DNA from: Cohnella herbarum | Lineage (GTDB): Bacteria; Bacillota; Bacilli; Paenibacillales; Paenibacillaceae | DNA: 64,000 bases | Direction of reading: 5' to 3' | Assembly (NCBI RefSeq): GCF_012849095.1 | Contig: NZ_CP051680.1 | Coordinates: 6,444,001-6,508,000 of the forward strand | Part shown: piece after piece, positions 31,921 to 61,323 of the stretch | Position numbering within the stretch: the stretch's first letter is position 1 | Layout: the number at the start of each line of letters is the position of its first letter | Position numbers and translations under genes: made by a program | The notes under the pieces: generated by a model | Seen by the model: only the letters and a program-made list of their open reading frames with translations | The model's database searches: none | What the model was told of the DNA's origin: nothing

Positions 31921-32595
31921 ATCTCTGGAGGGAGAATAGGGCGGCTGGACCGAGTTAGAGCGGACGGAAGTGGCGATTTGGAGGAAATAGCCCGGCTGGG
32001 CCGGGTTAGAGCGGACGGAAGTGGCGAATTGGAGGAAATAGGGCGGCTGGGCCGGGTTAGAGCGGATGGAAGAGGCACTATTGGAGGAAATAGGGCGGCT
32101 GGGCCGGGTTAGAGCGGATGGAAGAGGCACTTTTGGAGGAAATAGGGCGGCTGGGCCGGGTTAGAGCGGATGGAAGAGGCACTATTGGAGGAAATAGAGC
32201 GGCTGGGCCGGGTTAGAGCGGATGGAAGAGGCACTATTGGAGGAAATAGAGCGACTACGCCGCTTTAAATTGACGGAAGAGGCACTATTGGAGGAAATAG
32301 AGCGGCTACGCCGCTTTAAATCGACGGAAGAGGCACTATTGGAGGAAATAGAGCGGCTACGCCGCTTTAAATCGACGGAAGAGGCACTATTGGAGGAAAT
32401 AGAGCGGCTACGCCGCTTTAAATCGACGGAAGAGGCACTATTGGAAGAAATAGAGCGGTTACGCCGCTTTAAATTGACGGAAGAGGCACTATTGGAGGAA
32501 ATAGAGCGGCTACACCGCTTTAAATCGACGGAAGAGGCACTATTGGAGGAAATAGAGCGGCTACGCCGCTTTAAATGGACGGAAGAGGCTGTGCC
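31921..32595. repeat. Tandem array A, about 13 units of 51-52 bp
   Basis: Units start at GGAGGAAATAG near 31928, 31980, 32031, 32083, 32135 and so on to 32545. Early units carry GGCTGGGCCGGGTTAGAGCG; later ones carry AGCGGC-TAC-GCCGCT, a short perfect hairpin, plus TTTAAATCGACGG. Because 51 is a multiple of three, several frames stay open (17-residue repeats such as TEEALLEEIERLRRFKS), but no ribosome site or family supports translation. The array fills the gap between kdpC and the KdpD-like gene. Confidence 0.9.
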
Positions 32596-32724
32596 TGTCA
32601 AGAAATATTGGTTTTATATGGTAAATAGTGAATCTGTCGAGTGCAAGGAAGTTGGATCGGGTGAATTGTGTTAGTACGCTAAGGGAGGTTGAAACGGATG
32701 ACGAATTAGCTGCTAGTAAGATCC

Positions 32725-33176
32725 AACAACACCAGCACCAACCAACTAGCACCAACCAACTAGCACCAACCAACTAGCACCAACCAACTAGCACCAACCA
32801 ACTAGCACCAACCAACTAGCACCAACCAACAAGCACCACCAACCAACAAGCACCAACCAACTAGCACCAACCAACTAGCACCAACCAACTAGCACAACCA
32901 ACTAGCACAACAAACAAACAACTAGCACAACCAACTAGCACAACCAACTAGCACAACCAACTAGCACAACCAACTAGCACAACCAACTAGCACAACCAAC
33001 TAGCACAACCAACTAGCACAACCAACTAGCACAACCAACTAGCACAACCAACTAGCACAACCAACTAACACAACCAACTAGCACAACCAACTAGCACAAC
33101 CAACTAGCACAACCAACTAGCACCAACCAACCAGCACTAACCAACCAGCACCAACCAACTAGCACCACCAACCAGT
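32725..33176. repeat. Minisatellite of 13/14-bp units
   Basis: About 30 head-to-tail copies of CACCAACCAACTAG (14 bp), then mainly CACAACCAACTAG (13 bp), then the 14-bp form again. The plus strand is almost only A and C apart from TAG. The minus strand is rich in GGTTG-type steps. Mixed 13- and 14-base units shift the frame, so it is not coding. It lies 80 bp before the KdpD-like gene. Confidence 0.92.
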
Positions 33177-33258
33177 ACCCTCTAGCAAGCACATATAGCC
33201 ACGATTAGCTGTCTATAGCGGTCTATCGCCACCACGAAGAAAGGAGAGACAACGAACA

Positions 33259-35601
33259 ATGGACAGTTTCCGCCGGAAGACGCCGGAAGAGCTCTTATAT
33301 TCGATATTCAAGATCCAGAACGGCCGGTTAAAAATATATATCGGCGCCGTTAGCGGCTCCGGAAAAACCTATCATATGTTGCGAGAAGGCCAGACGCTGC
33401 GCAACCAAGGCATCGATGTCGTCGTCTGCGCCGTCTCGACGATGCGCCGTCCGGAAACGGCGGAGCAACTGAAAGGGTTGGAGAGAATTCCGAGCATCCA
33501 TTGGATGAAGGGCGAAACGGAGAAAAAGGATCTTAATCTCGAGGCGTTAATGCAACGGAATCCCGAGGTCGTGCTCGTTGACGGACTCGCTCACCGGAAT
33601 CGGCCCGATGCCAAATTCGCGACCCGGTTGGAAGACATCCAGTACTTGCTCGGTCGCGGCATCAGCGTCATCACGACCGTGAACGTCTACGAATTGGAGG
33701 GCGTCACCGAGCTTGCGCAGAAGCTGACCGGCATCGAAGCGGAGGCGACGGTTCCGGCCGACACGCTCGATCTCGCGGACGAAGTGCGTCTCATCGACGT
33801 TAGCCCCGAGACGATATTGAAGCGTCTGGACGAAGGGAACCTTCCCAACCTGAACCTGAAGGATCCGAGACTTCTGAGGAGAGGGAATATCGGCAAGCTG
33901 CGGGAGCTGGCTCTCAGGCTTATGGCCGAAGACGTGAACGAGTCGCTGGAGAAGCATCGCGAGAAGGAAGGGCTGCTTGGCCCGTCCGGCGCAACCGAGC
34001 GCATCCTTGTTTCGGCGCAATACCATTGGAACGGGTCGATCCACATTCGGCGCGGGCAGCAGATTGCGAAGAGGCTCGGCGGAGATCTGAAGATCGTGAC
34101 GCTCGCGAATCCGCGTAAAACCCTTTCGAAGGAGTCGGCGCAATTCAAGCGTTCCATCGAGAAGCTGGCGGACAAGATCGATGCGTCGTTCGAGGAATTA
34201 CCGTTACCTACCAGGCGCCGGCTCCCAGCGATCTTGGTCCGATACGCGACGCTCAACAATGTCACTCGCATCGTGCTCGGCCACTCGAAACAAAGCTCCT
34301 GGCAAGACTTCTGGCACGGTTCCATCGCGGACGGTATTTTGAAAAAAACAAAAAACGTCGACGTGTTCTTCGTAGCGGATAGAGCCGACTACGACGGGGA
34401 AAGGGTACTGCCCACGAAAACCTCCGCTCCCCAAGCGGCTTCCGACCCTTATCGCCGTTTAAGCCCGGAGGAAATCGAGCAGAAGATTGAACGGATCAAG
34501 CGCGGCAAGTTCAAAGTATACATCGGCGCGGCTCCCGGCGTCGGCAAAACCTACATGATGCTGCGGGAAGGCAATGATCTATTACGCAAGAAGATCGACG
34601 TTGCCGTCGGGCTGTTGGAAACGCACGGCAGGGAGGAAACTTTGGCGCAAGTGGGAGATCTCCACGTCATTCCCCGCGCGACGATCAGCTACAAAGGAGC
34701 TAAGCTCGAAGAAATGGACGTCCCGGCAATTCTCATCCGCGATCCGGAAGTGGTCCTGATCGACGAGCTTGCCCATACGAACGTTCCCGGCAGCAAAAAC
34801 AAGAAGAGATACGATGACGTCCTCGAAGTGTTGGAAGCGGGCATATCGGTCATCTCGACGATGAACGTGCAGCATCTGGAAAGCTTGAACGATGCGGTCG
34901 AACAGATTACGGGAGTGCGGGTCCGCGAAACGGTGCCCGACAGTATTCTGAGGCTGGCGGACGAAGTGGAATTGATCGACGTCGCTCCCAAAGCCTTGCA
35001 GCAGAGAATGCGCGAAGGCAAAGTGTACGCGATGGACAAAGTGGCACAGGCGCTTGGCAACTTCTTCAAGACGGGCAACTTGATCGCTTTAAGGGAAATG
35101 GCGCTTAGGGAAATTGCGGACGACGTGGACGAAAGGTTGGAATCTTGGGAGCAGAACGGCTCGCTCAGAGGGCCCTGGAGAAGGCGCGAAAGCATATTCG
35201 TGTGCGTAACGACGAGCGGAAACGCGGACCGGCTTATTCGGCGGGGATTCCGGATCGCCCATCGTTTGAAGGCGGACTGGCATGTCATGTACGTCCACGT
35301 GGGTCAATCGATTAACGACGAAACGAACAAGAGAATTCAAGCTTTGCAAGACTTGACCGGCAGATTAGGCGGGAAATACGAGACCGAACGCGCGAGTACG
35401 TCTAAACAGCTGCCGGAGGTTATTTTACGCAAGGCGGCCGAATATCGCAGTACCCAGATGATCGTCGGCCAGTCGGCGCGCGGCTTCTGGCAATCGCTTC
35501 TGCGGAAGCCCGTCGTGAAATCGATTTTGCGGCACGGACGCCACATGGATGTGCTCGTCGTAGCCGACTACGATCCGAATATACGCATAGAGGATAATTA
35601 A
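33259..35601 (+). CDS. KdpD sensor-half protein, tandemly duplicated, no kinase
   Basis: A 780-aa protein made of two copies of the KdpD N-terminal module: KdpD P-loop domain (1-230), Usp-like domain (245-375), KdpD domain (about 400-610) and Usp-like domain (about 635-770). The second copy is canonical (GAAPGVGKTYMMLREG, VVLIDELAHTNVPGSKN, ISTMNVQHLESLND). The first is divergent (GAVSGSGKTYHMLREG, VVLVDGLAHRNRPDAK). The membrane helices, GAF-like part and histidine kinase of full KdpD are absent, and no kdpE follows. It may sense potassium, ATP or c-di-AMP and act on the pump directly. Ribosome site AAAGGAGAG. Confidence 0.9.
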   Translation: MDSFRRKTPEELLYSIFKIQNGRLKIYIGAVSGSGKTYHMLREGQTLRNQGIDVVVCAVSTMRRPETAEQLKGLERIPSIHWMKGETEKKDLNLEALMQRNPEVVLVDGLAHRNRPDAKFATRLEDIQYLLGRGISVITTVNVYELEGVTELAQKLTGIEAEATVPADTLDLADEVRLIDVSPETILKRLDEGNLPNLNLKDPRLLRRGNIGKLRELALRLMAEDVNESLEKHREKEGLLGPSGATERILVSAQYHWNGSIHIRRGQQIAKRLGGDLKIVTLANPRKTLSKESAQFKRSIEKLADKIDASFEELPLPTRRRLPAILVRYATLNNVTRIVLGHSKQSSWQDFWHGSIADGILKKTKNVDVFFVADRADYDGERVLPTKTSAPQAASDPYRRLSPEEIEQKIERIKRGKFKVYIGAAPGVGKTYMMLREGNDLLRKKIDVAVGLLETHGREETLAQVGDLHVIPRATISYKGAKLEEMDVPAILIRDPEVVLIDELAHTNVPGSKNKKRYDDVLEVLEAGISVISTMNVQHLESLNDAVEQITGVRVRETVPDSILRLADEVELIDVAPKALQQRMREGKVYAMDKVAQALGNFFKTGNLIALREMALREIADDVDERLESWEQNGSLRGPWRRRESIFVCVTTSGNADRLIRRGFRIAHRLKADWHVMYVHVGQSINDETNKRIQALQDLTGRLGGKYETERASTSKQLPEVILRKAAEYRSTQMIVGQSARGFWQSLLRKPVVKSILRHGRHMDVLVVADYDPNIRIEDN

Positions 35602-35704
35602 CGGGTTCCCACGAGGGGGGAATTATGGGTAAAATAGAAAGGCGAGGATATGTATATGCGGACATAGCCAACGATAGAGGGCACAATTCACCGGAGGGCA
35701 AGGG

Positions 35705-37447
35705 ATGCAATCATTTTTCCGTTTTTTAGGGAAATATCGAATAGCTGCCTTAATGGCAGTTTTTCTTATGCTGGTCGAACTGGCGGTAGAGCTCGTTCAA
35801 CCATTGCTGATTTCCAAAATTATCGACGACGGAATCGCCCGGCAAGACTCTGGCGTAGTTCTCTTATGGAGCGGAGTTCTCGTAGCCGGCACTCTATTGG
35901 CTTTCGGAGCGGGAATATTAAGTTCGTTCTTCGCGGCGCACGTGAGCCAGAGTCTAGGGTACGACATGCGTGAAAAGCTTTACGGCAAAGTTCAAGCTTT
36001 CTCTTATGCGGTGTTCAACCGATTCGCCACCTCGTCGCTCATTACGCGCTTAACGAACGACGTCAACCAGGTTCAAGACACGACGTTCATGGGACTTCGT
36101 TTTATGCTTCGGGTACCGTTAGTGGTGTTGGGGAGCATGATAATGGCGCTTGTCGTCCATGCGGGGCTTGGATTTTTGCTGTTGCTGACCGTTCCCGCGC
36201 TGATTTTGTTTATTATCTGGATCGTAAAAAAAGCGGCTTTCCTGTTCAAGAGGGTTCAGCAGCGACTCGATAACGTCAATGGGGTCATGCAGGAAAATCT
36301 AACGGGCATGCGGCTTATTCGCGTTTTCGTGCGCAGAGAGCAAGAAGCGGCGAGATTCGCCCGGCATAGCGGAGAGCTAATGCAAAGCTCTTCATCTGCT
36401 TTGCGTTTAACCGAGATTACGCTCCCGTTCATCGTACTGATCATGAACGCGGGAATTATCGCGGTTCTGTGGTTCGGCCAGCTTGAAATTCGCGCGGGCA
36501 GCGCGACGACCGGCGAGGTGATCGCGATCGTGAATTATTCGCTTCGGACCGCAGGCGCCTTATCGGCTCTGTCGATGTTGGTCTCGGCATTCTCGAGAGC
36601 GCGAGCTTCGGCGCAGCGCATTAACGAAGCGTTGGAAACGGACAGCGGAACGCGAGTCGGTCAAGAAACCGGAAAGTCGCCAGACCGGATCAGCGAAGGA
36701 ACGGTTGAATTCGAGAAGGTTACTTTTCAATATCCGAATACGGCAGCTCCGATCTTGGAAGAAATTTCGTTCCGGGCGAATCCGGGCGAAACGATAGCGC
36801 TATTGGGCGCTACCGGCTCCGGGAAATCCTCGCTCGTTCAGCTTATTCTTCGTCTATATGAAGAAGATAGCGGCAGTATTCGAATCGACGGGCGTAACGC
36901 TCGCGAATGGGATATCCGACAGCTTCACGATTCTATCGGTTACGTGCCGCAGGAGGTTCTATTGTTCACGGGAACGATAAGCGACAATATCGCTTGGGGA
37001 CTTGAGGACGTAAGCCGCGAACGGATCGTTGAGGCGGCCCGACTGGCGCAGATCCACGATACGATCATTCAGCTTCCGAACGGTTACGACACGTTGCTCG
37101 GACAGCGTGGCATTAATCTGTCGGGAGGCCAGAAGCAGCGAATTTCCATCGCCCGGGCGCTTATCCGGAAGCCCGCGATATTGGTACTCGACGATAGCAC
37201 GAGCGCGTTGGATGTTCGTACCGAAAGCGCTCTTCTGCAGGCGATCGAAAGCTTGTCCTGCACGACGTTCCTCATTACGCAGAAAATCAGCTCGACCCTG
37301 AACGCGGACCTTATTTTACTGCTCGATGACGGTCATCTTATCGCTCAAGGGAATCATCGGCAGCTCATGTCCGTCAGCAACCTATACCGTCGCATCTATG
37401 AATCGCAATTCGGGGAGGAGGGGTCGCATGTGGGAAGCATTAAGTGA
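35705..37447 (+). CDS. ABC exporter half-transporter, degenerate-site subunit
   Basis: A 580-aa fused membrane and ATPase half-transporter of the multidrug exporter family (YheI/BmrC-like). Six membrane helices come first, then Walker A GATGSGKSS (about 368), signature LSGGQKQR (about 470) and Walker B LVLDDSTSALD (about 494). The last has Asp in place of the catalytic Glu, so this subunit's own nucleotide site should be weak. The next gene overlaps by 20 bases and supplies the active site, giving a heterodimer. The substrate is unknown; drugs or lipids are typical. Confidence 0.92.
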   Translation: MQSFFRFLGKYRIAALMAVFLMLVELAVELVQPLLISKIIDDGIARQDSGVVLLWSGVLVAGTLLAFGAGILSSFFAAHVSQSLGYDMREKLYGKVQAFSYAVFNRFATSSLITRLTNDVNQVQDTTFMGLRFMLRVPLVVLGSMIMALVVHAGLGFLLLLTVPALILFIIWIVKKAAFLFKRVQQRLDNVNGVMQENLTGMRLIRVFVRREQEAARFARHSGELMQSSSSALRLTEITLPFIVLIMNAGIIAVLWFGQLEIRAGSATTGEVIAIVNYSLRTAGALSALSMLVSAFSRARASAQRINEALETDSGTRVGQETGKSPDRISEGTVEFEKVTFQYPNTAAPILEEISFRANPGETIALLGATGSGKSSLVQLILRLYEEDSGSIRIDGRNAREWDIRQLHDSIGYVPQEVLLFTGTISDNIAWGLEDVSRERIVEAARLAQIHDTIIQLPNGYDTLLGQRGINLSGGQKQRISIARALIRKPAILVLDDSTSALDVRTESALLQAIESLSCTTFLITQKISSTLNADLILLLDDGHLIAQGNHRQLMSVSNLYRRIYESQFGEEGSHVGSIK

Positions 37448-39263
37448 GCCCTTCCGCTATCGGAGGCCGAAAACTCTTGTCGAAGAAGCGGATCGAGGGG
37501 CGACGGTTAAACGTCCCAAGCAGAAGGCGAAGGATTGGCGCGCGACATTAAGGCGAATATGGCATTATCTTTCGCACCGCAAAGGGCGATTAAGTCTCGT
37601 ATTGCTTATGGTTCTGCTCAGCTCCGCGTTAACCCTTCTCGGCCCCTATCTGATCGGACGGGCGATCGACCATTATCTCGAGGGGCCGGGCGGCAAACCA
37701 TGGCTTCTTTTCCTCGGGGGGCTCGTTGCCGTATATGTGTTAAGTTCGGTCGTAAGTTGGCTGCAAAATATATGGATGATCTCGATCGCGCAGGAAACGG
37801 TCTATCGGATGCGCGTCGATTTGTTCGGCCATCTGCATAAGCTGCCTATTCCTTTCTTCGCCAAGCGTCAGCGCGGAGAGCTGATGAGCCGGATGACCAA
37901 TGACATGGACAACGTGAGCTCTACGTTGAACAGTTCCGCGATCCAGATTTTTTCCAGCGTGCTCATTCTCGTCGGAACGGTAATCGTGATGCTGCTGCTT
38001 AGCCCGCTGCTTACGTTGCTGACCTTCCTTGTCGTGCCGCTCATGGCGATCGGCATGAGATGGATTACGCGCAGAACCGGCGTCCTGTTCAAGGAGCGTC
38101 AACGCAATTTAGGGGAATTGAATGGCTACATCGAGGAAACGCTGTCCGGTCAGCGTATCGTAAAAGCATTTTCTCAAGAAGAGAGGGTCATTCGGGAGTT
38201 CGAAGATCGAAACTTGCGGATTAAGCTGTCGGGCTTCTGGGCTCAGGCGATTTCGGGTTTTATTCCGAAGGTGATGAACGGGCTTAACAATTTAAGCTTC
38301 GCGATTATTGCGGGGATCGGGGGAATTCTCGCTATCCGCGGGGCGATAACGGTTGGGGTTATCGTTATTTTCGTGGAATACGCCAGACAATTCACCAGAC
38401 CGCTTAACGATCTGGCGAATCAATGGAACACGCTGTTATCGGCTATTGCGGGAGCGGAGCGGGTATTCGAGATTCTGGATGAAGACGTCGAGGCCAAGGA
38501 TGAAGCGGCGTCCCGATCGCTTGATTCGGTACAAGGAGCCGTCGCGTTCTCTAACGTCTCGTTCTCTTACAATCCAGGGGAGCAGACGCTTAAGGACATC
38601 ACCTTCGAAGCGCGTCCCGGAGAAACGATCGCCATTATCGGACCTACCGGCGCGGGCAAAACTTCGCTTATACAGCTGCTCTCGCGTTTCTATGAAGCGG
38701 ATTCCGGGACCATCACGGTAGACGGTCATGAGATCACGTCGATCCGGCGGGAGAGCCTGCGCTCTCATATGGCTTTCGTGTTGCAAGATTCCTTCCTTTT
38801 CGAAGGCACAATACGCGAAAATATCCGTTACGGTAAGCTGGATGCGACGGACGAGCAAGTCGAGGCGGCCGCGAAGCTCGCGAATGCCCATTCGTTCATC
38901 GTGCGTCTGCCCGGCGGGTATGATAAGATTCTGCAGGGAGACGGAAGCGGGATCAGCCAAGGGCAGAAGCAGTTGCTGGCGATCGCCCGGGCGATTCTGG
39001 CGGACCCTGCGATTCTGGTACTGGACGAGGCAACGAGCAGCATCGATACCGTAACCGAAATCAAGATCCAGGAAGGCCTGCAGCGATTGATGGAAGGGCG
39101 CACGAGCTTCGTCATCGCCCATCGCCTCAATACGATTCGCCGCGCGGATCAAATTCTTGTCCTGAAGGACGGAAGGCTGCTGGAGAGAGGCTCTCACGAG
39201 GAACTGCTAGCAAAACCGGGCTTGTACAGCGAACTATTCCATGGAAACGTGCAGCTCAGTTAG
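37428..39263 (+). CDS. ABC exporter half-transporter, catalytic subunit
   Basis: A 611-aa partner of the preceding half-transporter (YheH/BmrD-like). It has a basic N-terminal extension, six membrane helices, Walker A GPTGAGKTS (about 404), a non-standard signature ISQGQKQL in place of LSGGQ (about 508), and a normal Walker B LVLDEATSSID. The altered signature faces the partner's weak Walker B, which is the expected asymmetry of heterodimeric exporters. ATG 37428 is preceded by GGGGAGGAGGGG. Confidence 0.92.
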   Translation: MWEALSEPFRYRRPKTLVEEADRGATVKRPKQKAKDWRATLRRIWHYLSHRKGRLSLVLLMVLLSSALTLLGPYLIGRAIDHYLEGPGGKPWLLFLGGLVAVYVLSSVVSWLQNIWMISIAQETVYRMRVDLFGHLHKLPIPFFAKRQRGELMSRMTNDMDNVSSTLNSSAIQIFSSVLILVGTVIVMLLLSPLLTLLTFLVVPLMAIGMRWITRRTGVLFKERQRNLGELNGYIEETLSGQRIVKAFSQEERVIREFEDRNLRIKLSGFWAQAISGFIPKVMNGLNNLSFAIIAGIGGILAIRGAITVGVIVIFVEYARQFTRPLNDLANQWNTLLSAIAGAERVFEILDEDVEAKDEAASRSLDSVQGAVAFSNVSFSYNPGEQTLKDITFEARPGETIAIIGPTGAGKTSLIQLLSRFYEADSGTITVDGHEITSIRRESLRSHMAFVLQDSFLFEGTIRENIRYGKLDATDEQVEAAAKLANAHSFIVRLPGGYDKILQGDGSGISQGQKQLLAIARAILADPAILVLDEATSSIDTVTEIKIQEGLQRLMEGRTSFVIAHRLNTIRRADQILVLKDGRLLERGSHEELLAKPGLYSELFHGNVQLS

Positions 39264-39313
39264 ACCGCTCGCAGCGGCTTGCAGCAACGATTAAAAAAGG
39301 AGTGAACCGTTAG

Positions 39314-39565
39314 ATGAACCATACAACAGTCGAGGTTGCGGAGTGGATGTTCTCGGAATTGAAAAATGCGGGTGTTTTGTATCAAACGGCAGCCGTTAAC
39401 CATATTAAGGAACAGTTCGGAGAACAATTCATTTACGTTAATGACAATGGTCATGAATCAATCGACAAAGAAGTAAAAAAGGCGTTCAAAAGGCTGCACG
39501 GCGGCAAAGCGGCTTGGGATCGCGACGCTTTCTATTGGGGCTGGACTTCGGCGATCAAGGATTAA
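39314..39565 (+). CDS. Small conserved protein, DUF6953-like
   Basis: An 83-aa soluble protein (EVAEWMFSELKNAGVLYQTA, GEQFIYVNDNGHESIDKEV, then WDRDAFYWGW). The pattern fits the small DUF6953 family of Bacillales, whose role is unknown. AAAAAGGAGTG lies before the ATG. It follows the ABC exporter by 50 bp and might be cotranscribed with it. Confidence 0.7.
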   Translation: MNHTTVEVAEWMFSELKNAGVLYQTAAVNHIKEQFGEQFIYVNDNGHESIDKEVKKAFKRLHGGKAAWDRDAFYWGWTSAIKD

Positions 39566-39654
39566 TTTTCGCCGACGTCTCAGGAGTATAGGCAAGGGAT
39601 ATTTCGGGGCAAGTGGGATGGACCGCATCACTAGAAATACCCAGTCATCATGAT

Positions 39655-40738: not shown

Positions 40739-40764
40739 AAGTAGGATTTCTCCCCAATCCATTG

Positions 40765-49439: not shown

Positions 49440-49760
49440 GGGGCGGTAGCGAGGGATAGGCGGAAAATCGGGCTAACTCGGTCACGGATGAGCAGAGTAG
49501 CGGGGAGATAGGCTGAAAATCCGGCCTAGGTAGCAGGGAGTTAGACGGAAAATCAGGCGAAGTCGGGCATGGGTCGGCTCGGTTGCGGGAATTAGACGAA
49601 AAATCAGGCGAATTCGGTCACGAATGGGCTGGGTAGCGGGGAGATAGGCTGAAAATCCGGCTAACTCGGTCACGGATGGGCTGGGTAGCGGGGTATAGGC
49701 TGAAAATCCGGCTAATTCGGTCACGGATGAGCAGGGTAGCGGGAGTTAGGCGGAGAATCG
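49440..49760. repeat. Tandem array B, six to seven units of about 51-52 bp
   Basis: GAAAATC followed by CGGCTAACTCGG or close variants recurs near 49463, 49515, 49548 (short unit), 49599, 49651, 49702 and 49753. Most spacings are 51-52 bp. Units also share GGGCTGGGTAGCGGGGAGATAGG. It fills most of the 493-bp gap between the hydrolase and acetyltransferase genes and reaches the latter's stop codon. The remaining 49270-49440 holds no recognised element. Confidence 0.85.
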
Positions 49761-49762
49761 CT

Positions 49763-50206
49763 CTAAGTCCGATGTATGCCGCCATACTCCATCAAATAAT
49801 ACGCCCCATTCGAGGATACGCCGTCCCCTTTAATGTGCCAGCCCTGCGAGCGATAGAAGCGTAGGGCTTTCGCATTTTCTTTGATGCATTTTAGCGTAAG
49901 CGGCGGGGAAGCGTCGAAAGTTTCATAGCAGGTTTGCAGGAGCTTCGTGCCCACCTGTTGCCCTGTATAGTCGGGATGGACGTAAAGATGGTGAATGAAG
50001 TGATCGGGAATCCATACCGCGACGAATCCAATTATCCTTGCGCCGTTGGTCGCGACAAGCACGAGTTCGCCTTCGGTGTCCCGATCGAAGTCTTCGGGCG
50101 CGAGCTTGGAGGAATCCATCCAAGTAAAATATTGCGCGCGGGATTTCAAATAAATTTCCCTTAGGGCGCTATGGTCTTGTTTGGTAGCTTGCCTGACCCG
50201 CAGCAT
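49763..50206 (-). CDS. GNAT-family N-acetyltransferase
   Basis: A 147-aa acetyltransferase. Acetyl-CoA-binding residues lie in HHLYVHPDYTGQQVGTKLLQ; the final strands are TLKCIKENAKALRFYRSQGW and the end is AYYLMEYG. The start is ATG 50206, seven bases after GGAGG. The substrate cannot be told from the sequence. Confidence 0.9.
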   Translation of the reverse strand: MLRVRQATKQDHSALREIYLKSRAQYFTWMDSSKLAPEDFDRDTEGELVLVATNGARIIGFVAVWIPDHFIHHLYVHPDYTGQQVGTKLLQTCYETFDASPPLTLKCIKENAKALRFYRSQGWHIKGDGVSSNGAYYLMEYGGIHRT

Positions 50207-51323: not shown

Positions 51324-51362
51324 AGAATGAGGGATTAACCATAGCTATAAATGAGAATAGGG

Positions 51363-51392: not shown

Positions 51393-51425
51393 GCGCGCGG
51401 TTCAGGAGAGGGGGATCTCAAAAGT

Positions 51426-51457
51426 TGTGGACAGGCTGTGCATAAGTCTGTGGATAA
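51426..51457 (+). promoter_or_regulatory. Cluster of three DnaA-box-like sites
   Basis: TGTGGACAG (51426), TGTGCATAA (51437) and TGTGGATAA (51449) lie in the same orientation, 11 and 12 bases apart. The last is a perfect DnaA box, the second has one mismatch and the first two. It sits between a terminator and tandem array C. Confidence 0.5.
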
Positions 51458-51496
51458 GTTGGTGGATTACAAACTCTAGAGCGCAGGATAGAGTAT

Positions 51497-51930
51497 CAGC
51501 GAGAGTTACACGAAAAAATCGACTAATTCGGGAGTAGTGGCTAGTTTCAGCGAGAGTTACACGAAAAAATCGACTAATTCGGAAGCAGTAGCTAGTTTCG
51601 GAGAGAGTTACACGAAAAAATCGACTAATTCTGGAGTAGTGGCTAGTTTCGGCGAGAGTTACACGAAAAAATCGACTAATTCGGGAGTAGTGGCTAGTTT
51701 CAGCGAGAGTTACTCGAAAGAATCGACTAATTCGGGAGTAGTAGCAAGTTTCAGCGAGAGTTACACGAAAAAATCGACTAATTCTGGAGTAGTAGCAAGT
51801 TTCAGCGAGAGTTACACGAAAAAATCGACTAATTCTGAAGTAGTAGCTAGTTTCAGCGAGAGTTGCTCGAAAAAATCGACTAATTCGGGAGTAGTGGCTA
51901 GTTTCAGCTAGAGTTACTCGAAAGAATCGA
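51497..51930. repeat. Tandem array C, eight and a half units of exactly 51 bp
   Basis: Units begin CAGCGAGAGTTAC at 51497, 51548, 51599 and every 51 bp to 51905. Each holds CGAAAAAATCGACTAATTC and GTGGCTAGTTTC, with few base changes. The 17-residue repeated frame (SYTKKSTNSGVVASFSE) has no ribosome site and is not considered a gene. Confidence 0.95.
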
Positions 51931-51993
51931 TATGAACTTCGGCGCTAAGCCAAAGGCACAACTTTGTCAGGTCATTCCTAAGAGTTTGAACGG

Positions 51994-52111: not shown

Positions 52112-52172
52112 CACCGCGCTAAAGAACCGCGCTAAAGAACCGCACTAACGAACCGCACTAACGAACCGCAAA
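52112..52172. repeat. Four direct repeats of 13 bp before the permease gene
   Basis: CACCGCGCTAAAG, AACCGCGCTAAAG and two AACCGCACTAACG copies run head to tail, followed by a partial copy. They lie in the leader between promoter and first gene. Confidence 0.8.
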
Positions 52173-53204: not shown

Positions 53205-53219
53205 GGGGAGGGCGCGAGG

Positions 53220-54113: not shown

Positions 54114-54129
54114 CGATTAATGATGTATC

Positions 54130-54145
54130 TAAGGCTTAGGCCTTA
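54130..54145 (+). other. Short hairpin before the binding-protein gene
   Basis: TAAGGC and GCCTTA arms around TTAG. It may protect the 5' end of the lipoprotein mRNA after processing. Confidence 0.4.
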
Positions 54146-54179
54146 AGATAAAATGAAGACAAGAAGAGGGGTAATACTC

Positions 54180-55895
54180 ATGCGTAAGGGGAAATGGTTT
54201 ACCGGCATCGTTCTTGCGTCAATAACGGCTCTAGCGGTTGCGGGATGCACGTCCGGCAACGGGAACAACGGCGGCGGTACGGACAAAGCTTCGCCCGCGG
54301 CATCCGCTTCCTCCAATTCGCCATCGGAGAGTAACGAGAAAACCGTCTACTCGATGGGCGTTGGGGATAGCAAGCTCGTTTGGGGCGGGCCGATTACCCA
54401 GAAGCTGACGGAGAAGACCGGCGTGGAGTTGAAATACGACGAAGTCGTCGGGGACCTGTTCCAGAAGTGGGATCTATGGCTTGCGGCTAGCGATTTCCCG
54501 GACATCGTTCGTCTCGATAACGAGCATTTGCAGAAATACATCGATGCCGGCGCCGTCATCCCCCTGGATGACCTGATCGACCAATACGGCCCGAACATTA
54601 AGGAGAAGTGGGGAGATTATCTGAATTTGCTTCGCCACGACGACGGCCATATTTACTCCTTATATTCGCTTAATCTGACCAAAGAAGCGCCGGCGAATGC
54701 CAAAGCGGGATTCGTCGTTCAGTACGACGTGCTGAGAGAAGCCGGATTTCCTACAATCAAAACGCTAGAGCAATTGTACGATGTCGTTAAAGCCTATGCC
54801 GACAAGTATCCGAAGATCGATGGCAAGGACACGGTCGCTTACGGTGCGGCAATGAATTCTTGGACGATTAATATATTTTTCAACAATCCGGCGACGAGCG
54901 CTTCGGGCAACCCCGATCACGGCAACTTTATCATCGACGCGGACGGTAACGTGCAGTGGAACCCGGTATCGGACTTCACGAAGCAATACTATAAATTTTT
55001 GAACAGATTGTTCAACGACAACATGCTGGACAAGGAAGCTTTCTCGATGGGCGATCAGGAGCTCCAAGCGAAAATGGCCCAAGGGCGAGTGCTCGCGGCC
55101 TATGCCCCGGCTTGGTTCTCGTCGGCGCCGGAGGCGTCGCTGCGCGCGGCAGGGCAACTCAATCGCCAGTATGCGCATATTCCGGTTTATTTCGACGAAT
55201 CGGTCAGCGATCATAGCAATGCCATGACTCCGGCGAACGGAGGAACGCATGAATTCGCCATTACGACGAACGCCAAGAACCCGGAGAAAATCATGAAATT
55301 TTTCGACTATCTGTTCTCCGACGAAGGACAAATCCTTACGCAATGGGGCGTCGAAGGCGTACATTACGAGGTCAAGGACGGCAAGCGCGTTCAGAAGCCG
55401 GAATGGATCCAGAAGAAGCTATCCGATCCCGATGCGATCTATAAGGAAGGCTTCCGCAGCGAGTATACCGGTCAGACGACCAATTGGTTCAGCATCGGGG
55501 ACGGCGCCAAGCTGGCGGATGGCGACTTCGCAACGCCGATCACCCAGGAGTCCGTCCGCAGCGAGTACGACGAGATGACTTTGGAAGTACTGAGCAAATA
55601 CAACATTTCCACATGGGCCGAACTTCTGCCTCCCGTAGAGAAAGTGCCCGGTTATCTATGGCAACTGCCGCCGCCGAGCGACTCTAAGTTCAAGGTGATC
55701 GATCAGAAGCTGGACGATCTGAGAAGGAAAACGACGTCCGAGATCGTCATGGCCAAGAACGATGCCGAATTCGAGAAGGCTTTCGGGGATTTCGTCAAAT
55801 CGGCCAAGGATATCGGATTGGAAAGCTATGAAGCTTCCTTTACTAAGGTATGGAAGGATTACGTCGCGAATTATCAATCAACGCTGGGCCAATAA
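54180..55895 (+). CDS. Sugar-binding lipoprotein, LplA-like
   Basis: A 571-aa lipoprotein (lipobox ALAVAGC, Cys23) with a Gly/Asn/Ser linker and the large family-1 binding fold (YSMGVGDSKLVWGGPITQKL, AASDFPDIVRLDNEHLQKYI, FFDYLFSDEGQILTQWGVEG). The long, two-lobed form is typical of LplA-type proteins that bind oligosaccharides. ATG 54180 is eight bases after GAGGGG; the ATG at 54153 lacks a site. It should deliver substrate to the two permeases encoded upstream. Confidence 0.92.
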   Translation: MRKGKWFTGIVLASITALAVAGCTSGNGNNGGGTDKASPAASASSNSPSESNEKTVYSMGVGDSKLVWGGPITQKLTEKTGVELKYDEVVGDLFQKWDLWLAASDFPDIVRLDNEHLQKYIDAGAVIPLDDLIDQYGPNIKEKWGDYLNLLRHDDGHIYSLYSLNLTKEAPANAKAGFVVQYDVLREAGFPTIKTLEQLYDVVKAYADKYPKIDGKDTVAYGAAMNSWTINIFFNNPATSASGNPDHGNFIIDADGNVQWNPVSDFTKQYYKFLNRLFNDNMLDKEAFSMGDQELQAKMAQGRVLAAYAPAWFSSAPEASLRAAGQLNRQYAHIPVYFDESVSDHSNAMTPANGGTHEFAITTNAKNPEKIMKFFDYLFSDEGQILTQWGVEGVHYEVKDGKRVQKPEWIQKKLSDPDAIYKEGFRSEYTGQTTNWFSIGDGAKLADGDFATPITQESVRSEYDEMTLEVLSKYNISTWAELLPPVEKVPGYLWQLPPPSDSKFKVIDQKLDDLRRKTTSEIVMAKNDAEFEKAFGDFVKSAKDIGLESYEASFTKVWKDYVANYQSTLGQ

Positions 55896-55973
55896 GCCCG
55901 GGAGGACTCCTCGGCCGATCGGGCCGGGGAATCCGTCTTTGCGGATATTGCCCCGAACGGACGGAGGATCGCC

Positions 55974-57794
55974 GTGAGAATTCAGACCAAATTATTCGTC
56001 GTGTACTTGCTCGCGGCGATCCTGCTAATGGGAGCTTTGACGTATTTCCTGACGGAGAGAAGCGCAAGCTTGCTATTCGAAGCGATCACGGAGACGAAGG
56101 AGCAGACCCTTGCGCAAATTACGTCCAATCTGGACAACGAGCTGCGGTCCTACGAAGAAACGGCCAACTCTTTTTATCTGAACATTACGCTTCAGCAGAT
56201 GCTGACCGAAAGATATGCGGACAAGAGGCTGGCCTACCGGGAGTATTTCGGTTTTTTGCAGCCTTATCTTTCCCTGCTTCAGGGGACGAAGGATATTTAT
56301 CGCGTTAATTTTTACTCCGACAACCCGACCCTCCCTTTCGCCAACGTGATTCTCTTGGATGACGAAATCCGCGGGGAAGCGTGGTACAAGGCATTAATGG
56401 CGAAGCCTTCGGGCATGTACTGGACGAATTCGTATCCGGTGCCGATGTTCGACGAACGGGTATTCAGCTTGCGGCAGAAACTGGATTACTTGGAACCGGG
56501 GACGGAGTTGTACGCCTCGATTGAAGTACGGGAGAGAGAACTGCGCCAACTCGTTGCCGAGGAGAGCCGCGATGCGCGAATATTGTTCGTGTTGAAAGAC
56601 GGCCATGTGCTGCTGGATAGCGCGGATCCCGAGAAAAAACGAGCCAAGCTGGAGCAATATTCGTTCGCTGCGGAGATCGGAGAAGGGGACGGACATTTTC
56701 AACTGGAGGAAGACGGGAGCTCGTCCTTGGTGTTGTACCGCCATCTGAATAGCCGAAGCGCGTTAAGGGATATGCAGGTGATCCTTCTCGTACCCTTGGA
56801 CGAGCTAATGCCGAAAGTCGAACGAATGCGCTGGCTCGCTTACGTGATGTTATCCGTTTCCTGCGTGCTCGCGGCATTGCTCGTATACGGGCTATCGATC
56901 GGACTGACCAAGAGGCTGACGACGCTCGCGAAAAAAATGAGGAACGTGCATCAGGATCGATACCGCGGTTATGTGGAAGTAAAAGGGAACGACGAAATCA
57001 GCCAACTCGGCCGAATCTTCAACGAGATGGTCAAGCAACTGGAACGGCTGATTCGGGAAGTCTATCAGGCTGAGATAGACAGCAAGGAACTGGCTCTAAG
57101 AACTCGCGAAGCGGAATTTTACGCGCTTCAAGCGCAGATTAACCCGCATTATTTGTTTAACGTTCTGAATATGCTCCGTGCGAATCTGCTCGATCTTCAG
57201 GACGGCAAAAACGCGGATATCGTCGATATGATCGCCCGTACCTTCCGTTTTCTACTGCACAACAAATCGGAAAGGATCACGGTCCGGGAAGAGCTCGAAC
57301 TGGTGGGGACGTATCTTAAGATACAGAAGCTGAGGTACGAGCACCGGCTGCAATTCCGGATCGAGGTACCCGAAGACGCGTTGGATCTGCTTATTCCCAA
57401 GCTGACCCTTCAGCCTTTGGTCGAGAACGCCTTGGCGCATGGGCTTGAACCGAATGCGGAACCTACGTTGATCCAAGTTTGCGGGGTAAAGAAAGGTGAC
57501 GGCTGGCTCATTAGCGTCGAGGATAACGGGATCGGCATCGGCGAGGAACGGTTGACGGAAATCGGGGAGTGGTTATCTGGCAAGCAGTCCGTCCTATCCG
57601 AGAACCACATCGGCATAAGAAACGTGCATTATCGGTTGACGGCCATATTCGGGGCAGAGAGCGGTCTCCGGATAAGCAGCGAAGGCCGAGGCGCGAGGGC
57701 AGCATTTTATGTGCCGGCGAACGCGGCGGAATTGAGACGGGATGAGGGTTCGGAAGGAGCGATGCAAGATGCTGGACGTGCTCATCGTGGATGA
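55974..57794 (+). CDS. YesM-type sensor histidine kinase
   Basis: A 606-aa membrane kinase. Two membrane helices (about 8-25 and 285-310) flank an extracellular sensor region, followed by a HAMP linker and a His_kinase domain. The phosphorylated His392 lies in QINPHYLFNVLNML, with ATP-binding motifs QPLVENALAHGLEP and ISVEDNGIGIGEERL. The start is GTG 55974, six bases after GGAGG. It is coupled to the AraC-type response regulator by a 26-base overlap. It probably senses a sugar or the loaded binding protein encoded before it. Confidence 0.93.
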   Translation: MRIQTKLFVVYLLAAILLMGALTYFLTERSASLLFEAITETKEQTLAQITSNLDNELRSYEETANSFYLNITLQQMLTERYADKRLAYREYFGFLQPYLSLLQGTKDIYRVNFYSDNPTLPFANVILLDDEIRGEAWYKALMAKPSGMYWTNSYPVPMFDERVFSLRQKLDYLEPGTELYASIEVRERELRQLVAEESRDARILFVLKDGHVLLDSADPEKKRAKLEQYSFAAEIGEGDGHFQLEEDGSSSLVLYRHLNSRSALRDMQVILLVPLDELMPKVERMRWLAYVMLSVSCVLAALLVYGLSIGLTKRLTTLAKKMRNVHQDRYRGYVEVKGNDEISQLGRIFNEMVKQLERLIREVYQAEIDSKELALRTREAEFYALQAQINPHYLFNVLNMLRANLLDLQDGKNADIVDMIARTFRFLLHNKSERITVREELELVGTYLKIQKLRYEHRLQFRIEVPEDALDLLIPKLTLQPLVENALAHGLEPNAEPTLIQVCGVKKGDGWLISVEDNGIGIGEERLTEIGEWLSGKQSVLSENHIGIRNVHYRLTAIFGAESGLRISSEGRGARAAFYVPANAAELRRDEGSEGAMQDAGRAHRG

Positions 57795-59013
57795 CGAGCC
57801 GGCTGCCTTAAGAGCGATGCGAGGCTTGATCCCTTGGGAGCAATACGGATTTCGAATCAGAGGGGAAGCGGCAAACGGGGAAGAGGCTCTTGAGCGCTTC
57901 AAGCAGTTCAAATTCGAACTGATCATTAGCGATATCCGCATGCCCCGGATGGACGGACTTCAGTTGATCGCGAGCATTCGCGAGCAATCGCAGGTGCCCA
58001 TATTCGTGTTAAGCGGATACGGGGAATTCGAATACGCGCGCAGGGCGATGCAACTCGGCGTGAAAGATTATTTGCTTAAGCCCGTTAGCGCCGACGAATT
58101 GAGGGAGAAGCTGCTTGCGGTCAAATCCTTCATCGAGCAAGAAGCGATGGAGCGGACGAAGTGGCATCGCGGAATGCCGCTTGTTCGCGAGCAGTTGGTG
58201 CGGCGTTGGGCGCGCGGGTTGCTCGTCGACTCTCCGGCATTCCAAGAGTTCAAATTGCCGGGTCGAAGCGCAGGGAGCGAAACTCCGTTCTGCGTGTTCA
58301 TCGTAGAGCTGACGGAGTTGCAACGCCTGAAGGAAGTTCAGTCCCGTACCGAGATTCAGCTTCGCAGGTTCGCCGTTCGCAATGTCGTAGAGGAACTGTT
58401 CGGCAGCGAGGGGATGTTGTTCGAGGAATCGTTGGAGCGTTTCGGCGTGATCTATATGCCTTCTTCGGAAATGCGAGACACGGAAGCCTTATTCAACAAG
58501 GCAACCGAGCTCCATAACCAGGTCATGCAGTTCGCCAAGGCCGATATCGCGGTTTCCGTCGGCCCGCTCGTCCTCTCGCCCGAGGATGTGCCGGATTCCT
58601 ACGAGGCTGCTCTCGAGGTCATGAACAAGAAGGAGCTGCTTCGATCGGAGAAACCGGTATGGCTGGCGGAGCGGGTCAATCAAAGAAAAGACAGCCATTA
58701 CTTGCTGGTCGAGGAAGTGAAGCAGATCGTTAAGGAACGCTACGCGACCAACCTCGAGCTCAAGCATATCGCAGGAGAATTGTTCGCCAATCCGAATCAA
58801 TTGGGGCAGCTTTTTCGAGCGTACGCGGGGGTTTCCTTCAAGGATTATTTGTTGCGCAAAAGATTGGAAGCCGCTAAGGATCTACTGATTTTTACCGATA
58901 AAAAAGTATATGAGATCGCCGAAGAAGTCGGGTTTAAGGAGATCGATTGGTTCTACAAAAAGTTCAAGCTGCATACGGGAAAGAGCGCCAACGAATTCCG
59001 CACGAAAAGTTGA
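57769..59013 (+). CDS. YesN-type response regulator, AraC family
   Basis: A 414-aa regulator with an N-terminal receiver domain (LIVDDEPAALRAM; phosphorylated Asp55 in ISDIRMPRMDG; LLKPVSADEL). A middle region of unknown fold is followed by two AraC helix-turn-helix motifs (LELKHIAGELFANPNQLGQL; KVYEIAEEVGFKEIDWFYKK). GGAAGGAG is nine bases before ATG 57769. It should activate the transporter and glycosidase genes around it. Confidence 0.93.
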   Translation: MLDVLIVDDEPAALRAMRGLIPWEQYGFRIRGEAANGEEALERFKQFKFELIISDIRMPRMDGLQLIASIREQSQVPIFVLSGYGEFEYARRAMQLGVKDYLLKPVSADELREKLLAVKSFIEQEAMERTKWHRGMPLVREQLVRRWARGLLVDSPAFQEFKLPGRSAGSETPFCVFIVELTELQRLKEVQSRTEIQLRRFAVRNVVEELFGSEGMLFEESLERFGVIYMPSSEMRDTEALFNKATELHNQVMQFAKADIAVSVGPLVLSPEDVPDSYEAALEVMNKKELLRSEKPVWLAERVNQRKDSHYLLVEEVKQIVKERYATNLELKHIAGELFANPNQLGQLFRAYAGVSFKDYLLRKRLEAAKDLLIFTDKKVYEIAEEVGFKEIDWFYKKFKLHTGKSANEFRTKS

Positions 59014-59050
59014 GGCTGCAAGGGGCATTAACCATCGAGGAGGGGCGAGA

Positions 59051-61045
59051 ATGTATTTCGGAGCTTGTTATTACGCCGAGCATTGGCCGGAGGAACGCTG
59101 GGAGCGCGACGCCGAATTGATGCGGGAGGCCGGGTTCAATCTGGTGCGGTTGACCGAATTCGCATGGAATAGGATCGAAAGAACCGAAGGGAATTTCACT
59201 TTCGATTGGTTGGACAGGTGCATGGATACTTTCGCGTCCCGGGGTATTCGGGTCATTCTCGGCACGCCGACCGCCAGTCCGCCGAAGTGGATCATGGACC
59301 GCCATCCCGAGATGTACAAAAGGGATATGTACGGGCATGTCAGAGGTTTCGGTACGCGGATGCACTATTGTTTTAACAGCGAGGCATACCCCGGTTACGT
59401 TCGAAAGATCGTGGGGGCGATGACGGAGCGATACAAGGATCACCCGCATGTCGTCGGTTGGCAAATCGACAACGAGTTCGGTTGCGTGGATACGACTTGG
59501 TGTTATTGCGATACGTGCAAAGTAGCTTTCCAGCAGTGGTTAAAGGAAAAGTATGCCACGATCGACGCCTTGAACGAAAGCTGGGGGACGATAGTATGGA
59601 ACAACATGTACAATTCGTTCGAGGAAATCGAGACGCCTAAGTTAACCGTTTATCAACTTCATAACCCGAGTTATCAGCTTGATTTTCGAAGATTTTCTTC
59701 CGATGCCGTCTGCAGGTTCCAAGACATTCAGATCGACGTTATCCGGAGCGCGGCGCCGCATCAGACCATAACGCACAACATGATGGGTACCTTTAACGAA
59801 ATCGATTACTATAAGCTCGCGCAACCGCTAGACGTCGCGGGGCTCGACGTATACCCGAACTTCCCGGACAACGAGCCGATCAATCCGTATACTCCCGCGC
59901 TTCACCATGATATGACGAGAGGCTTCAAGCAGGCGAACTATTGGATACTCGAGCATCAGAGCGGTACGCCGGGCGCGCATATCTTAAAAGCTACTCCGAA
60001 GCCGGGGGAATTGAGACGCTGGACGTATCAGTCCATCGCCCGCGGCGCGGATGCGCTCCTTTATTTCCGCTGGAGAACCGCCGTCGTCGGGGCCGAGCAG
60101 CATTGGCACGGCATTCTGCAGCATAGCGGGGTACCCGGGCGCAAATACGAGGAGGTCCGGCACGTCGGGGCCGAGTTGAATAAGCTGTTCCCGTATTTGG
60201 AAGGGAGCACGGTCCGACACAATGCCGCTATCGTCCGCTGCTTCGAGAACGATTGGGTGTTCGACATCCAGCCGCATAATCCGGGGTATAAGTATCTTCG
60301 CGGGGTGAAGAAGTATCATCGCTACTTTTTCGAGAAGCATACGGGAGTCGACGTGATCTCTCCGGAAGCCGACTTCTCCGGCTATCGGCTTCTGATCTTG
60401 CCTCATCTTGCTTTGGTAGACGAGTCATTGGCGAATAAAATCTATCGATACGTCGAAGCCGGAGGCACGGTCGTGATGGATTTCCGCGCCGGGGCCAAGC
60501 TGCCGGACAATCGGATGCGTTCCGAGGTGTTGCCGGGTCCGTTCAAGGAGCTGCTCGGCATCGAGATCGACGATTACGGGATTATCGCCGAGGGAGAGGA
60601 GCAGAAACTGAGATTCGAGGGCGATGCGGTCGCGGATTACGGCGCTCGCGTCTGGTACGATGTCATTCAACCGCGGGGAGCTTCAGAGACGATCGCCGAA
60701 TTCGCGTCTGACTACTTCGCGGGAGCTCCCGCGGTTACGCGAAACTCGCATGGTCGAGGGCAAGCGTATTACATTGGCACTGAGCTCGGCGCCGCCGCGC
60801 TTACTCGGCTGTTGGACCTAATCTGCGAGGAAACCGGAGCGCTTCCGGAATGGAGCGTCGACCATCCCGAGGTGGAGGTATCCGTTCGTCGCCGAGGGGA
60901 TCGCAGCGTGTATTTCGTCATCAACCATTCCACGGAAACCGTTGAGGTCGTACCTCCGGCCGGAGGTCGGCATTTGCTTGAGGATAGGCAGTTGGAGCAG
61001 GTTGAAACTCTTAAGCCGAACGATGTGCTTATTTATAGCGTTTAG
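59051..61045 (+). CDS. Beta-galactosidase, GH42 family
   Basis: A 664-aa intracellular glycosidase. The acid/base Glu142 is in VGWQIDNEFGC and the nucleophile Glu301 in WILEHQSGTPG. The trimerisation-type middle domain (YRLLILPHLALVDESLANKI) and short C-terminal beta domain are present. The Cys cluster near residue 150 (WCYCDTC) fits the zinc site of many members. It would cut galactose from imported galacto-oligosaccharides. The start is ATG 59051 after GAGGAGGGG. Confidence 0.95.
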   Translation: MYFGACYYAEHWPEERWERDAELMREAGFNLVRLTEFAWNRIERTEGNFTFDWLDRCMDTFASRGIRVILGTPTASPPKWIMDRHPEMYKRDMYGHVRGFGTRMHYCFNSEAYPGYVRKIVGAMTERYKDHPHVVGWQIDNEFGCVDTTWCYCDTCKVAFQQWLKEKYATIDALNESWGTIVWNNMYNSFEEIETPKLTVYQLHNPSYQLDFRRFSSDAVCRFQDIQIDVIRSAAPHQTITHNMMGTFNEIDYYKLAQPLDVAGLDVYPNFPDNEPINPYTPALHHDMTRGFKQANYWILEHQSGTPGAHILKATPKPGELRRWTYQSIARGADALLYFRWRTAVVGAEQHWHGILQHSGVPGRKYEEVRHVGAELNKLFPYLEGSTVRHNAAIVRCFENDWVFDIQPHNPGYKYLRGVKKYHRYFFEKHTGVDVISPEADFSGYRLLILPHLALVDESLANKIYRYVEAGGTVVMDFRAGAKLPDNRMRSEVLPGPFKELLGIEIDDYGIIAEGEEQKLRFEGDAVADYGARVWYDVIQPRGASETIAEFASDYFAGAPAVTRNSHGRGQAYYIGTELGAAALTRLLDLICEETGALPEWSVDHPEVEVSVRRRGDRSVYFVINHSTETVEVVPPAGGRHLLEDRQLEQVETLKPNDVLIYSV

Positions 61046-61049
61046 GGAT

Positions 61050-61089
61050 GAACCGGGTTGCGTGATTTACGCTCCCGGTTCTTTTTTTT
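61050..61089 (+). terminator. Terminator of the GH42 gene
   Basis: GAACCGGG-TT-GCG pairs with CGC-TC-CCGGTTC and is followed by eight T residues. Confidence 0.9.
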
Positions 61090-61136
61090 GCCTACTTAGA
61101 AAGTGTGAATTGGCTCCCAGCTAGACCAACCAACGG

Positions 61137-61323
61137 CTAAGTGTAAAAATGGCACTTAGATCGAGATGAGTTTTCCCGAAGAGTGAACTAAATGTAAAAC
61201 ATGCAACTAGTTTGAACGGTTTGCTCGAATCGAGTCAATGAACCGCCAACTAGTTGTATATTTTCCACTTAGATGTTGAAGATGCAAAGTTTCCGGGAAT
61301 CTAAGTGTACATTATGCACCTAG
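61137..61323. repeat. Array D, four spaced near-palindromes
   Basis: Four 23-base elements of the form CTARNTGTA-N6-TGCAMYTAG lie at 61137, 61188, 61250 and 61301 (some with changes). Starts are 51, 62 and 51 bp apart. Each begins and ends with CTA(A/G)-type half-sites. It lies between two terminators with no coding sequence. Confidence 0.65.

Follow-up and report, generated by a model that had tools for sequence, protein, structure and literature searches.

Dispersed four-palindrome repeats and 51-bp tandem arrays of related palindromes in a Cohnella genome

The window analysed in this study is a stretch of 64,000 nucleotides (G000:C1:6444001-6508000) of an 8.52-Mb Cohnella genome, G000, which carries three tandem arrays (A, B and C) and a further repeat, D. 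We report that these repeats are built from a dyad, an imperfect palindrome whose arms undergo compensatory change, that dyads stand at quantised distances from one another, that they occur in dispersed copies of a four-dyad element represented in the window by D, and that at one locus such an element continues into a tandem array. A and C, and marginally B, are shown to be members, together with D, of a single superfamily of extragenic palindromic repeats. The explanation that we consider best, with a probability of about 0.5, joins this superfamily to a putative mechanism. The arrays would have arisen by slippage or unequal exchange duplicating a dyad-plus-spacer unit, their period being the element's own dyad spacing. 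The geometry would be held by selection, with a dimeric enzyme engaging the dyads, as duplex DNA or as hairpins, in a helical register of 5-6-5 turns at about 10.3 bp per turn. The element would most likely be a non-autonomous mobile element, similar to the REPINs (REP doublets forming hairpins, where REP is repetitive extragenic palindromic) and moved by an enzyme other than a RAYT (REP-associated tyrosine transposase), which is the least certain step. Short palindromes of this kind occur between genes of this soil bacterium and of some relatives, alone, by fours or in long arrays; that their letters differ between families, combined with constant spacing and mirror symmetry, points to a DNA-handling system.

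The dyad and its compensatory changes

The unit is a quasi-palindrome of about 25 bp, consisting of T-W-R (positions -10 to -8 from the centre), an arm of about 5 bp whose sequence is free, a loop of 5 bp, a second arm complementary to the first and Y-W-A (+8 to +10). Joint circular alignment of 44 units, one from each array, reached 644 bits by leave-one-out scoring, against 322-363 in 12 shuffled sets. Watson-Crick pairing of the arm positions at the true centre was 70% in the 24 arrays scoring at least 14 and 54% in all 44, compared with 16-30% and 18-29%, respectively, at 20 other centres. When whole right arms were redealt among 27 arrays, the observed value of 167/243 was never reached in 5000 tries.

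Covariation was analysed in a set named A1, comprising 26 real units, one per array, out of the 27 with a leave-one-out score of at least 12. Unit L075:1344 was left out because it showed no dyad in that register (pairing in the L075 array is 24%), an exclusion that slightly favours the pairing figure. The 8-pair stem of A1 was 85.1% paired, against 62.0 ± 2.5% after shuffling and 27-44% when slid, and the covariation score was 0.626, against 0.272 ± 0.032 in shuffled sets (0/500 reaching it) and at most 0.214 when slid; two measures based on the numbers of pairs and of pair types showed no excess over shuffles. Pair types in the stem switch fully (A-U/G-C 11/11, G-C/U-A/C-G 11/6/5, C-G/G-C 12/9 and A-U/U-A 16/9), the foot T...A is nearly fixed, and the neighbouring R...Y pair does not covary. 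Within arrays, the arms vary less than the spacers (0.078 against 0.186) in 18 of 24 cases (P 0.0005). The dyad rule was obeyed at P < 0.05 in 20/26 training arrays (P was 0.002 for A, 0.050 for B and 0.064 for C). Simply taking the best palindrome of any kind in each unit gave only a modest excess in 41 arrays (mean 5.9 against 4.5).

Covarying 8-pair stems would also be expected of RNA hairpins in 3' regions, selected for their structure as mRNA stabilisers or attenuators, and the locations of the repeats, often near 3' ends and in the case of A between co-directional kdp genes, agree with such a role. RNA should, however, favour G.U pairs, and no such bias was seen: in 15 arrays between co-directional genes, sense-strand A.C mismatches were as frequent as G.T (0.82 and 0.68 array-equivalents). 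Moreover, only some units fold better than their shuffles (mean z -0.8 and -1.1, 41 arrays), and there is no RNA reason for hairpins to stand at exact spacings of 51 and 62 bp when the spacers between them are unrelated. The mismatch frequencies and the strict spacing argue for DNA over RNA, and we regard this explanation as very unlikely; a sense-strand RNA hairpin was rejected on the missing G.U bias.

Spacing of dyads and the four-dyad element

Dyads outside the arrays detected by Tandem Repeats Finder (TRF) were located with a score built from A1 in 1.664 Mb of G000 (7500 N), a sample of 81 stretches made up of 80 stretches of 20 kb and the window. Within 160 bp, 24 neighbour pairs were found, at distances of 50 (1), 51 (6), 52 (5), 56 (1), 61 (2), 62 (5), 112 (3) and 114 (1) bp; 22 of the 24 thus stood at 51-52, 61-62 or 112-114 bp, with spacers that agree at 1-10 of 21 positions, mostly at chance level. 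Around 130 non-array anchors, the only offsets with at least four partners were 51, 52, 62, 112, 113 and 165, the mean per offset being 0.39. At five of ten incomplete loci, an extra dyad above the 99% background was present at a predicted place. The top offsets in five other genomes of the genus and two named Cohnella stretches were 51, 114, 61 and 50, while in genomes outside Paenibacillaceae no offset exceeded 1 at the same thresholds. A pattern search of the whole of G000 returned 445 sites, whereas its reversed control returned 146; among the exact matches listed, the distances up to 165 bp outside runs of 51 were, by eye, 62, 165, 113, 59, 52, 61, 165, 114, 51, 113, 51 and 164 bp, two loci of this list being also in the 1.664-Mb sample.

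These distances resolve into an element of four dyads at 51-62-51 bp (ranges 50-52 and 60-63), about 164 bp from first to last centre, the whole forming a dispersed overall inverted repeat of about 193 bp. In a scan with this template, right spacings outnumbered wrong ones by 30 to 6 in G000, 7 to 2 in other Cohnella and 7 to 1 in other Paenibacillaceae, with 0 and 0 in the rest. The 30 hits in G000 include shifted readings and represent 18 distinct loci, and the 7 in other Cohnella represent 5; by eye, the 18 loci comprise 13 four-dyad elements, one three-dyad element, two halves and two apparently spurious hits. Both spacings give 10.3 bp per turn (51.5/5 and 61.7/6). Since about 51.5 and 62 bp are five and six turns, the arrangement on one helix face suggested by the earlier note is a fair inference, although the binding protein it invoked was not identified. 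Its proposal of selection on spacing is well supported, because non-tandem dyads with unrelated spacers occur almost only at the set distances and because families with different arm letters keep 51-62-51 in both Cohnella and Paenibacillus.

Element D (61134-61326, unstranded), with CTAAGTG half-sites and a profile match, has dyads at 61136-61160, 61187-61211, 61249-61273 and 61300-61324, centred on 61148, 61199, 61261 and 61312, and hence in steps of 51, 62 and 51 bp. These dyads were found by a simple rule together with the template. D had been described as a fourth array of 51-52 bp period; TRF does not report it at a score of at least 40, and it is instead a single four-dyad element. Further elements in G000 include those at L044, L060, L063 (two), L064, L134, L159, L160 and L161, and others were found at L110 (G003), L096 (G015) and, in three Paenibacillus genomes, L203, L225 and L233. 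Three elements fold better as single-stranded DNA than their shuffles (z -4.2, -3.6 and -3.2).

Copies within one half-site class are homologous over about 193 bp, and their profiles match on both strands. For the CTAACGG family, 40 of 42 non-self rows were counted as matches in G000 (a 30-bp row and one with E 1.56 were dropped), at 69-87% identity to the query. Net length change was 0 in 30/40 of them, and in 18/25 of those aligning over at least 170 columns; the alignments of the other 15 are shorter than 170 columns and may end at indels. Among the candidates scored in 36 other genomes of the genus (E ≤ 0.001), this family matched over at most 137 bp (G003, 67%), and a match of about 75 bp was present in G006. 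D has 12 further matches of at least 120 bp in G000; G010 has a match of 182 bp, and G015 has two partial matches. Searches of plasmid sequences gave no match for D. G048, the closest relative in which the D locus is present (78% amino acid identity), does not carry D, the intergenic DNA there differing throughout. In a separate observation, one CTAACGG element (G000:C1:1241627-1243599) appears split at query position 67 by about 1.8 kb (1241679-1243464), which may be an insertion or possibly an autonomous version of the element.

An alternative to mobility is a host architectural site, in which the four dyads would form a platform where a nucleoid protein or gyrase wraps or bridges DNA, and the arrays larger platforms; E. 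coli BIMEs (bacterial interspersed mosaic elements) have been reported as platforms of this kind. Several features suit this alternative. Dispersed copies hardly change in length, the 10.3-bp register fits a wrapped complex, and conservation in ten copies is higher in the half-sites (0.842) than in the spacers (0.618) or the inner arms and loop (0.564). All 22 elements examined lie outside called open reading frames (ORFs), mostly between convergent (8) or codirectional (11) genes, with 2 between divergent genes and 1 at a locus edge. On the other hand, the arms vary among families of one genome, which is unexpected for one sequence-specific protein, the families are largely species-restricted (D having one near-full-length match, in G010), and the kdp locus has anything from 13 copies to none, depending on the species. 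We hold a host site to be doubtful, though a serious candidate, and favour the REPIN-like mobile element over it.

A crude terminator scan found a terminator at 6 of 27 gene ends and was uninformative, because it missed an evident hairpin followed by eight T upstream of D.

The 51-bp arrays, their proposed origin and the weight of the evidence

Array A (31921-32595, + strand) lies between the co-directional genes kdpC and kdpD, and has 13 dyad units centred from 31947 to 32563, at spacings of 51 (eight times) and 52 bp (four times); TRF places it at 31963-32589 with 12.2 copies of period 51. It mixes two arm types, CCCGGC/GCCGGG and AGCGGC/GCCGCT. Array B (49440-49772, - strand), delimited by TRF and dyad centres, fits the shared dyad marginally. 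Its dyads are centred at 49551, 49602, 49654, 49705 and 49756, in 51-52 bp steps, and two weaker units at 49466 and 49518 are separated from these by a 33-bp step, an 18-bp loss (TRF 49529-49759, period 51 or 103, 4.5 copies). Array C (51492-51940, - strand), delimited in the same manner, lies 3' of an alpha/beta-hydrolase gene, with dyads every 51 bp from 51516 to 51873 and a ninth and last unit at 51924 (TRF 51492-51930, period 51, 8.6 copies); related arrays are present elsewhere in G000. The 51-52 bp repetition first noted for A, B and C is therefore confirmed, and the GAAA...CGRCTA likeness that had been noticed among them corresponds, by eye, to the dyad's foot.

The period is general in the genome, its excess being well beyond chance. 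Among 51 non-redundant TRF rows of period at least 9 and score at least 60 in the 1.664-Mb sample, 18 had period 51, A and C among them, one had 50, one 103, and every other period occurred at most four times, so that no broad spread of periods was found; the autocorrelation maxima were at 51 and then 102. Periods of 50-52 (or 102-104, 153) were present in all five relatives from the genus (10 stretches of 20 kb each), G003 having a single row, of 50. Across 35 Paenibacillaceae kdp loci (0.74 Mb), the sole period-51 row was in Cohnella rhizosphaerae, and P. mendelii had one of 102. The 45 loci from outside the family included one period-52 row, in Rossellomorea; it is a 12-copy array of R. vietnamensis (L208 15341-15977). 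In G025, from another family of the same order (L121-L130, 10 stretches of 20 kb), there were no rows of 50-52, and three tandem repeats of 45-46 bp in 200 kb, perhaps a different fixed period. Other Cohnella arrays, at L117 18521-18788 and L116 9906-10280 (G009) and L081 16374-18623 (G012), have periods of 82/162 (autocorrelation lag 41) and 62 bp, near four and six helical turns.

When 42 array units, taken from C. rhizosphaerae and six genomes of the genus, were compared all against all on both strands and in all rotations, 64 of 861 pairs matched at 27/51 positions or more, where 0.6 were expected. A single-linkage cluster joined 23 arrays from four genomes, including A, B and C. In the joint alignment, A (20.7) and C (16.5) scored above the shuffled 95% point of 14.3 and B (12.2) below it; A and C clearly, and B marginally, share the quasi-palindrome with other units. 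The arrays had been taken to differ in sequence, which is half right, and the idea of a free sequence is too strong: A, B and C cluster together and many units share the dyad core and are partly related, but 17 of 44 arrays, including L211 (C. rhizosphaerae), L090 of G012 and L176 of G010, score below 12 and fit that core poorly. These 17 arrays, and the fact that L176, whose sequence is different, lies 3' of the hydrolase gene that C also follows, are what favours the original view of unrelated arrays of independent origin with only their period in common. Against it stand the clustering of A, B and C, the fit of A and C to the shared alignment, the one covarying stem of 26 units, and D, which obeys the same dyad rule. 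We therefore judge independent origin extremely unlikely.

At L161, a four-dyad element runs straight into a tandem array, as a chain of 52-61-52-61-51-51-51 bp in which the first dyad after the element is weak (score 0.8). The 51-bp arrays are therefore read as amplified dyad-plus-spacer units. Between kdpC and kdpD, G000 has 13 units and G015 three, and by eye G010 has one and G048 none, while G022 has a different inverted repeat. At the locus of array C, G015 has, by eye, a single similar dyad, and in G010 the array of other sequence is a 51-bp array of 15 copies. The continuity at L161 and these locus differences make the array period most simply the element's dyad spacing, copied, which would explain one common period among differently lettered tandem arrays of one genus. 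The suggestion in the earlier note of a copying mechanism that makes the unit length holds in part, as the arrays look like duplicated 51-bp dyad-plus-spacer units of the kind seen in the L161 chain.

Part relatedness of the units and differences in unit number at the kdp locus could also be produced by a neutral satellite of one ancestor, whose length would be kept by unequal exchange and whose arms would be kept complementary by template switching in the absence of selection; bacteria are known to correct quasi-palindromes by template switching. Such a satellite fails to account for non-tandem dyads with unrelated spacers that keep 51 and 62 bp, for the 51-62-51 geometry of differently lettered Cohnella and Paenibacillus families, or for the persistence of T-W-R/Y-W-A as the arms change, and we think it quite unlikely.

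The following points weigh against the explanation preferred here, of a mobile element with arrays derived from it. In six of 24 arrays, C among them, the arms are not less variable than the spacers. The dyad rule holds at P < 0.05 in only 6 of 18 held-out arrays (the 17 scoring below 12 and L075; 0.9 expected), and 12 fail, including the ATTGTCGC...GCGACAAT group, in which the dyad has another kind of foot; the P values of B and C are themselves only 0.050 and 0.064. The dyads of D score low in the pair model (2.8-8.4). Four of the ten incomplete loci have no further dyad and L064 is borderline. Element families share copies, and the spacings within a family are therefore not independent. Rossellomorea, which is not of the family, also has a 52-bp array. 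Ten copies inspected by eye showed no target-site duplication, and neither a clean empty site nor an enzyme for the elements was found. Finally, the constant length of old copies is as compatible with a use by the host as with mobility.

The repeats had been placed entirely between genes. A simple ORF caller, which ignores ORFs lying more than 30% in repeats, agrees for A, B, C and D and puts 39/41 arrays outside ORFs; small ORFs nevertheless overlap A and C, and a GTG-started hydrolase ORF extends to 49485, into the start of B. One of the 18 period-51 rows, L031:8997, lies inside an ORF of 581 aa. A coding repeat was considered and set aside; as 51 = 3 x 17, some reading frames stay open across repeats. 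A 150-aa ORF over A scores 27.8 as a whole protein against the Pfam family ATR1_N (cut-off 27), and no single stretch of it passes.

Within the window, tandem arrays of 13-bp period adjoin A (32734-33172, 33 copies) and C (52113-52170, 4.5 copies). Just before C, at 51425-51465, there are repeated TGTGGATAA-like words, which we take to be DnaA-box-like, and the same locus of G015 (L175 2565-2656) has a 21-bp repeat of similar words. The only Rfam matches in the window at gathering score are three cyclic di-AMP riboswitches (25577-25731, -; 26111-26306, +; 26400-26581, +), which lie upstream of the kdp genes and include a tandem pair, and no Rfam family matches at A-D. A 780-aa KdpD-like protein encoded at 33259-35601 has two KdpD sensor stretches and a Usp domain, and Pfam reports no kinase domain in it.

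Comparison with known repeats

Searches of phage sequences gave no match for array A. The arrays differ from CRISPRs (clustered regularly interspaced short palindromic repeats) in that the spacers repeat along with the dyads; in A and C, entire units match the TRF consensus at 92-93%. A MITE (miniature inverted-repeat transposable element) of a DDE transposase would have terminal inverted repeats and a target-site duplication; here the element is inverted-symmetric as a whole, and no duplication was seen by eye in ten copies. Among the best-listed open-licence papers in PubMed Central, titles and abstract openings report no such repeat in Paenibacillus or Cohnella.

Within Bacillota, the Bacillus cereus group has bcr1, a dispersed non-coding repeat of about 150 bp with stem-loops. 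It is alike in these respects, as far as a comparison by description goes, and we know of no four-dyad geometry in it. It appears in a table row of PMC2267715.

REPs and BIMEs of gammaproteobacteria are described as short imperfect extragenic palindromes, clustered or regularly arrayed, whose stems show compensatory changes, the palindromes of BIMEs being regularly spaced in alternating orientation (PMC2817692, PMC3733652). The Cohnella repeats are likewise multi-copy imperfect palindromes of 20-40 bp, extragenic in 39/41 arrays and 22/22 elements by the simple caller, clustered or in arrays, with compensatory stem changes. They differ in the four-dyad 51-62-51 module, in arms that are not conserved between families, and in that neither a GTAG nor a CGTC tag was found within 6 nt of the stem in the 81 dyads tested (0/26 array units, 0/55 element dyads). 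The cognate Y1 transposase (PF01797) has 0 matches in G000, and 5 of 30 genomes searched have one, including G002, G012 and G013 of the genus; a RAYT/IS200 origin was rejected for G000 on this count. As neither of these two defining features, tag and RAYT, was found, the Cohnella repeats are not filed as REPs. CGTC-tagged REPs, as described in PMC3733652, have a stem of 8-9 bp with A/T pairs at the foot, a loop of 4-5 and no dedicated transposase known, and are reported from five other phyla; neither of the words Paenibacillus and Firmicutes appears in that text. The Cohnella dyads are similar in stem length, A/T foot and loop size, and differ in the tag.

The REPINs of Pseudomonas fluorescens are described as dispersed inverted doublets in which the length of the spacer and the ability to form a hairpin are maintained and compensatory changes are frequent; singlets occur as remnants, and there are some tandem arrays at set distances of 112/72 bp (PMC3116915). 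The Cohnella elements are similarly dispersed, inverted-symmetric, conserved in length and sometimes in tandem arrays, and differ in having four dyads rather than two terminal REPs, in their spacing, and in that no RAYT partner was found; movement was not seen. At somewhat less than even odds, they may represent a previously undescribed class of Paenibacillaceae elements, with four palindromes at 5-6-5 turns, arms drifting freely by compensatory change while the geometry and the T-W-R/Y-W-A foot stay fixed, an enzyme unrelated to RAYTs that moves or binds them, and growth into 51-bp arrays. Palindromic repeats in bacteria usually go with RAYT transposases or conserved motifs. In the present case the letters are free while geometry and symmetry are preserved, in a genome where a RAYT was not found, and spacing, helical phase and hairpin together offer a testable handle on how palindromic repeats are recognised and spread.

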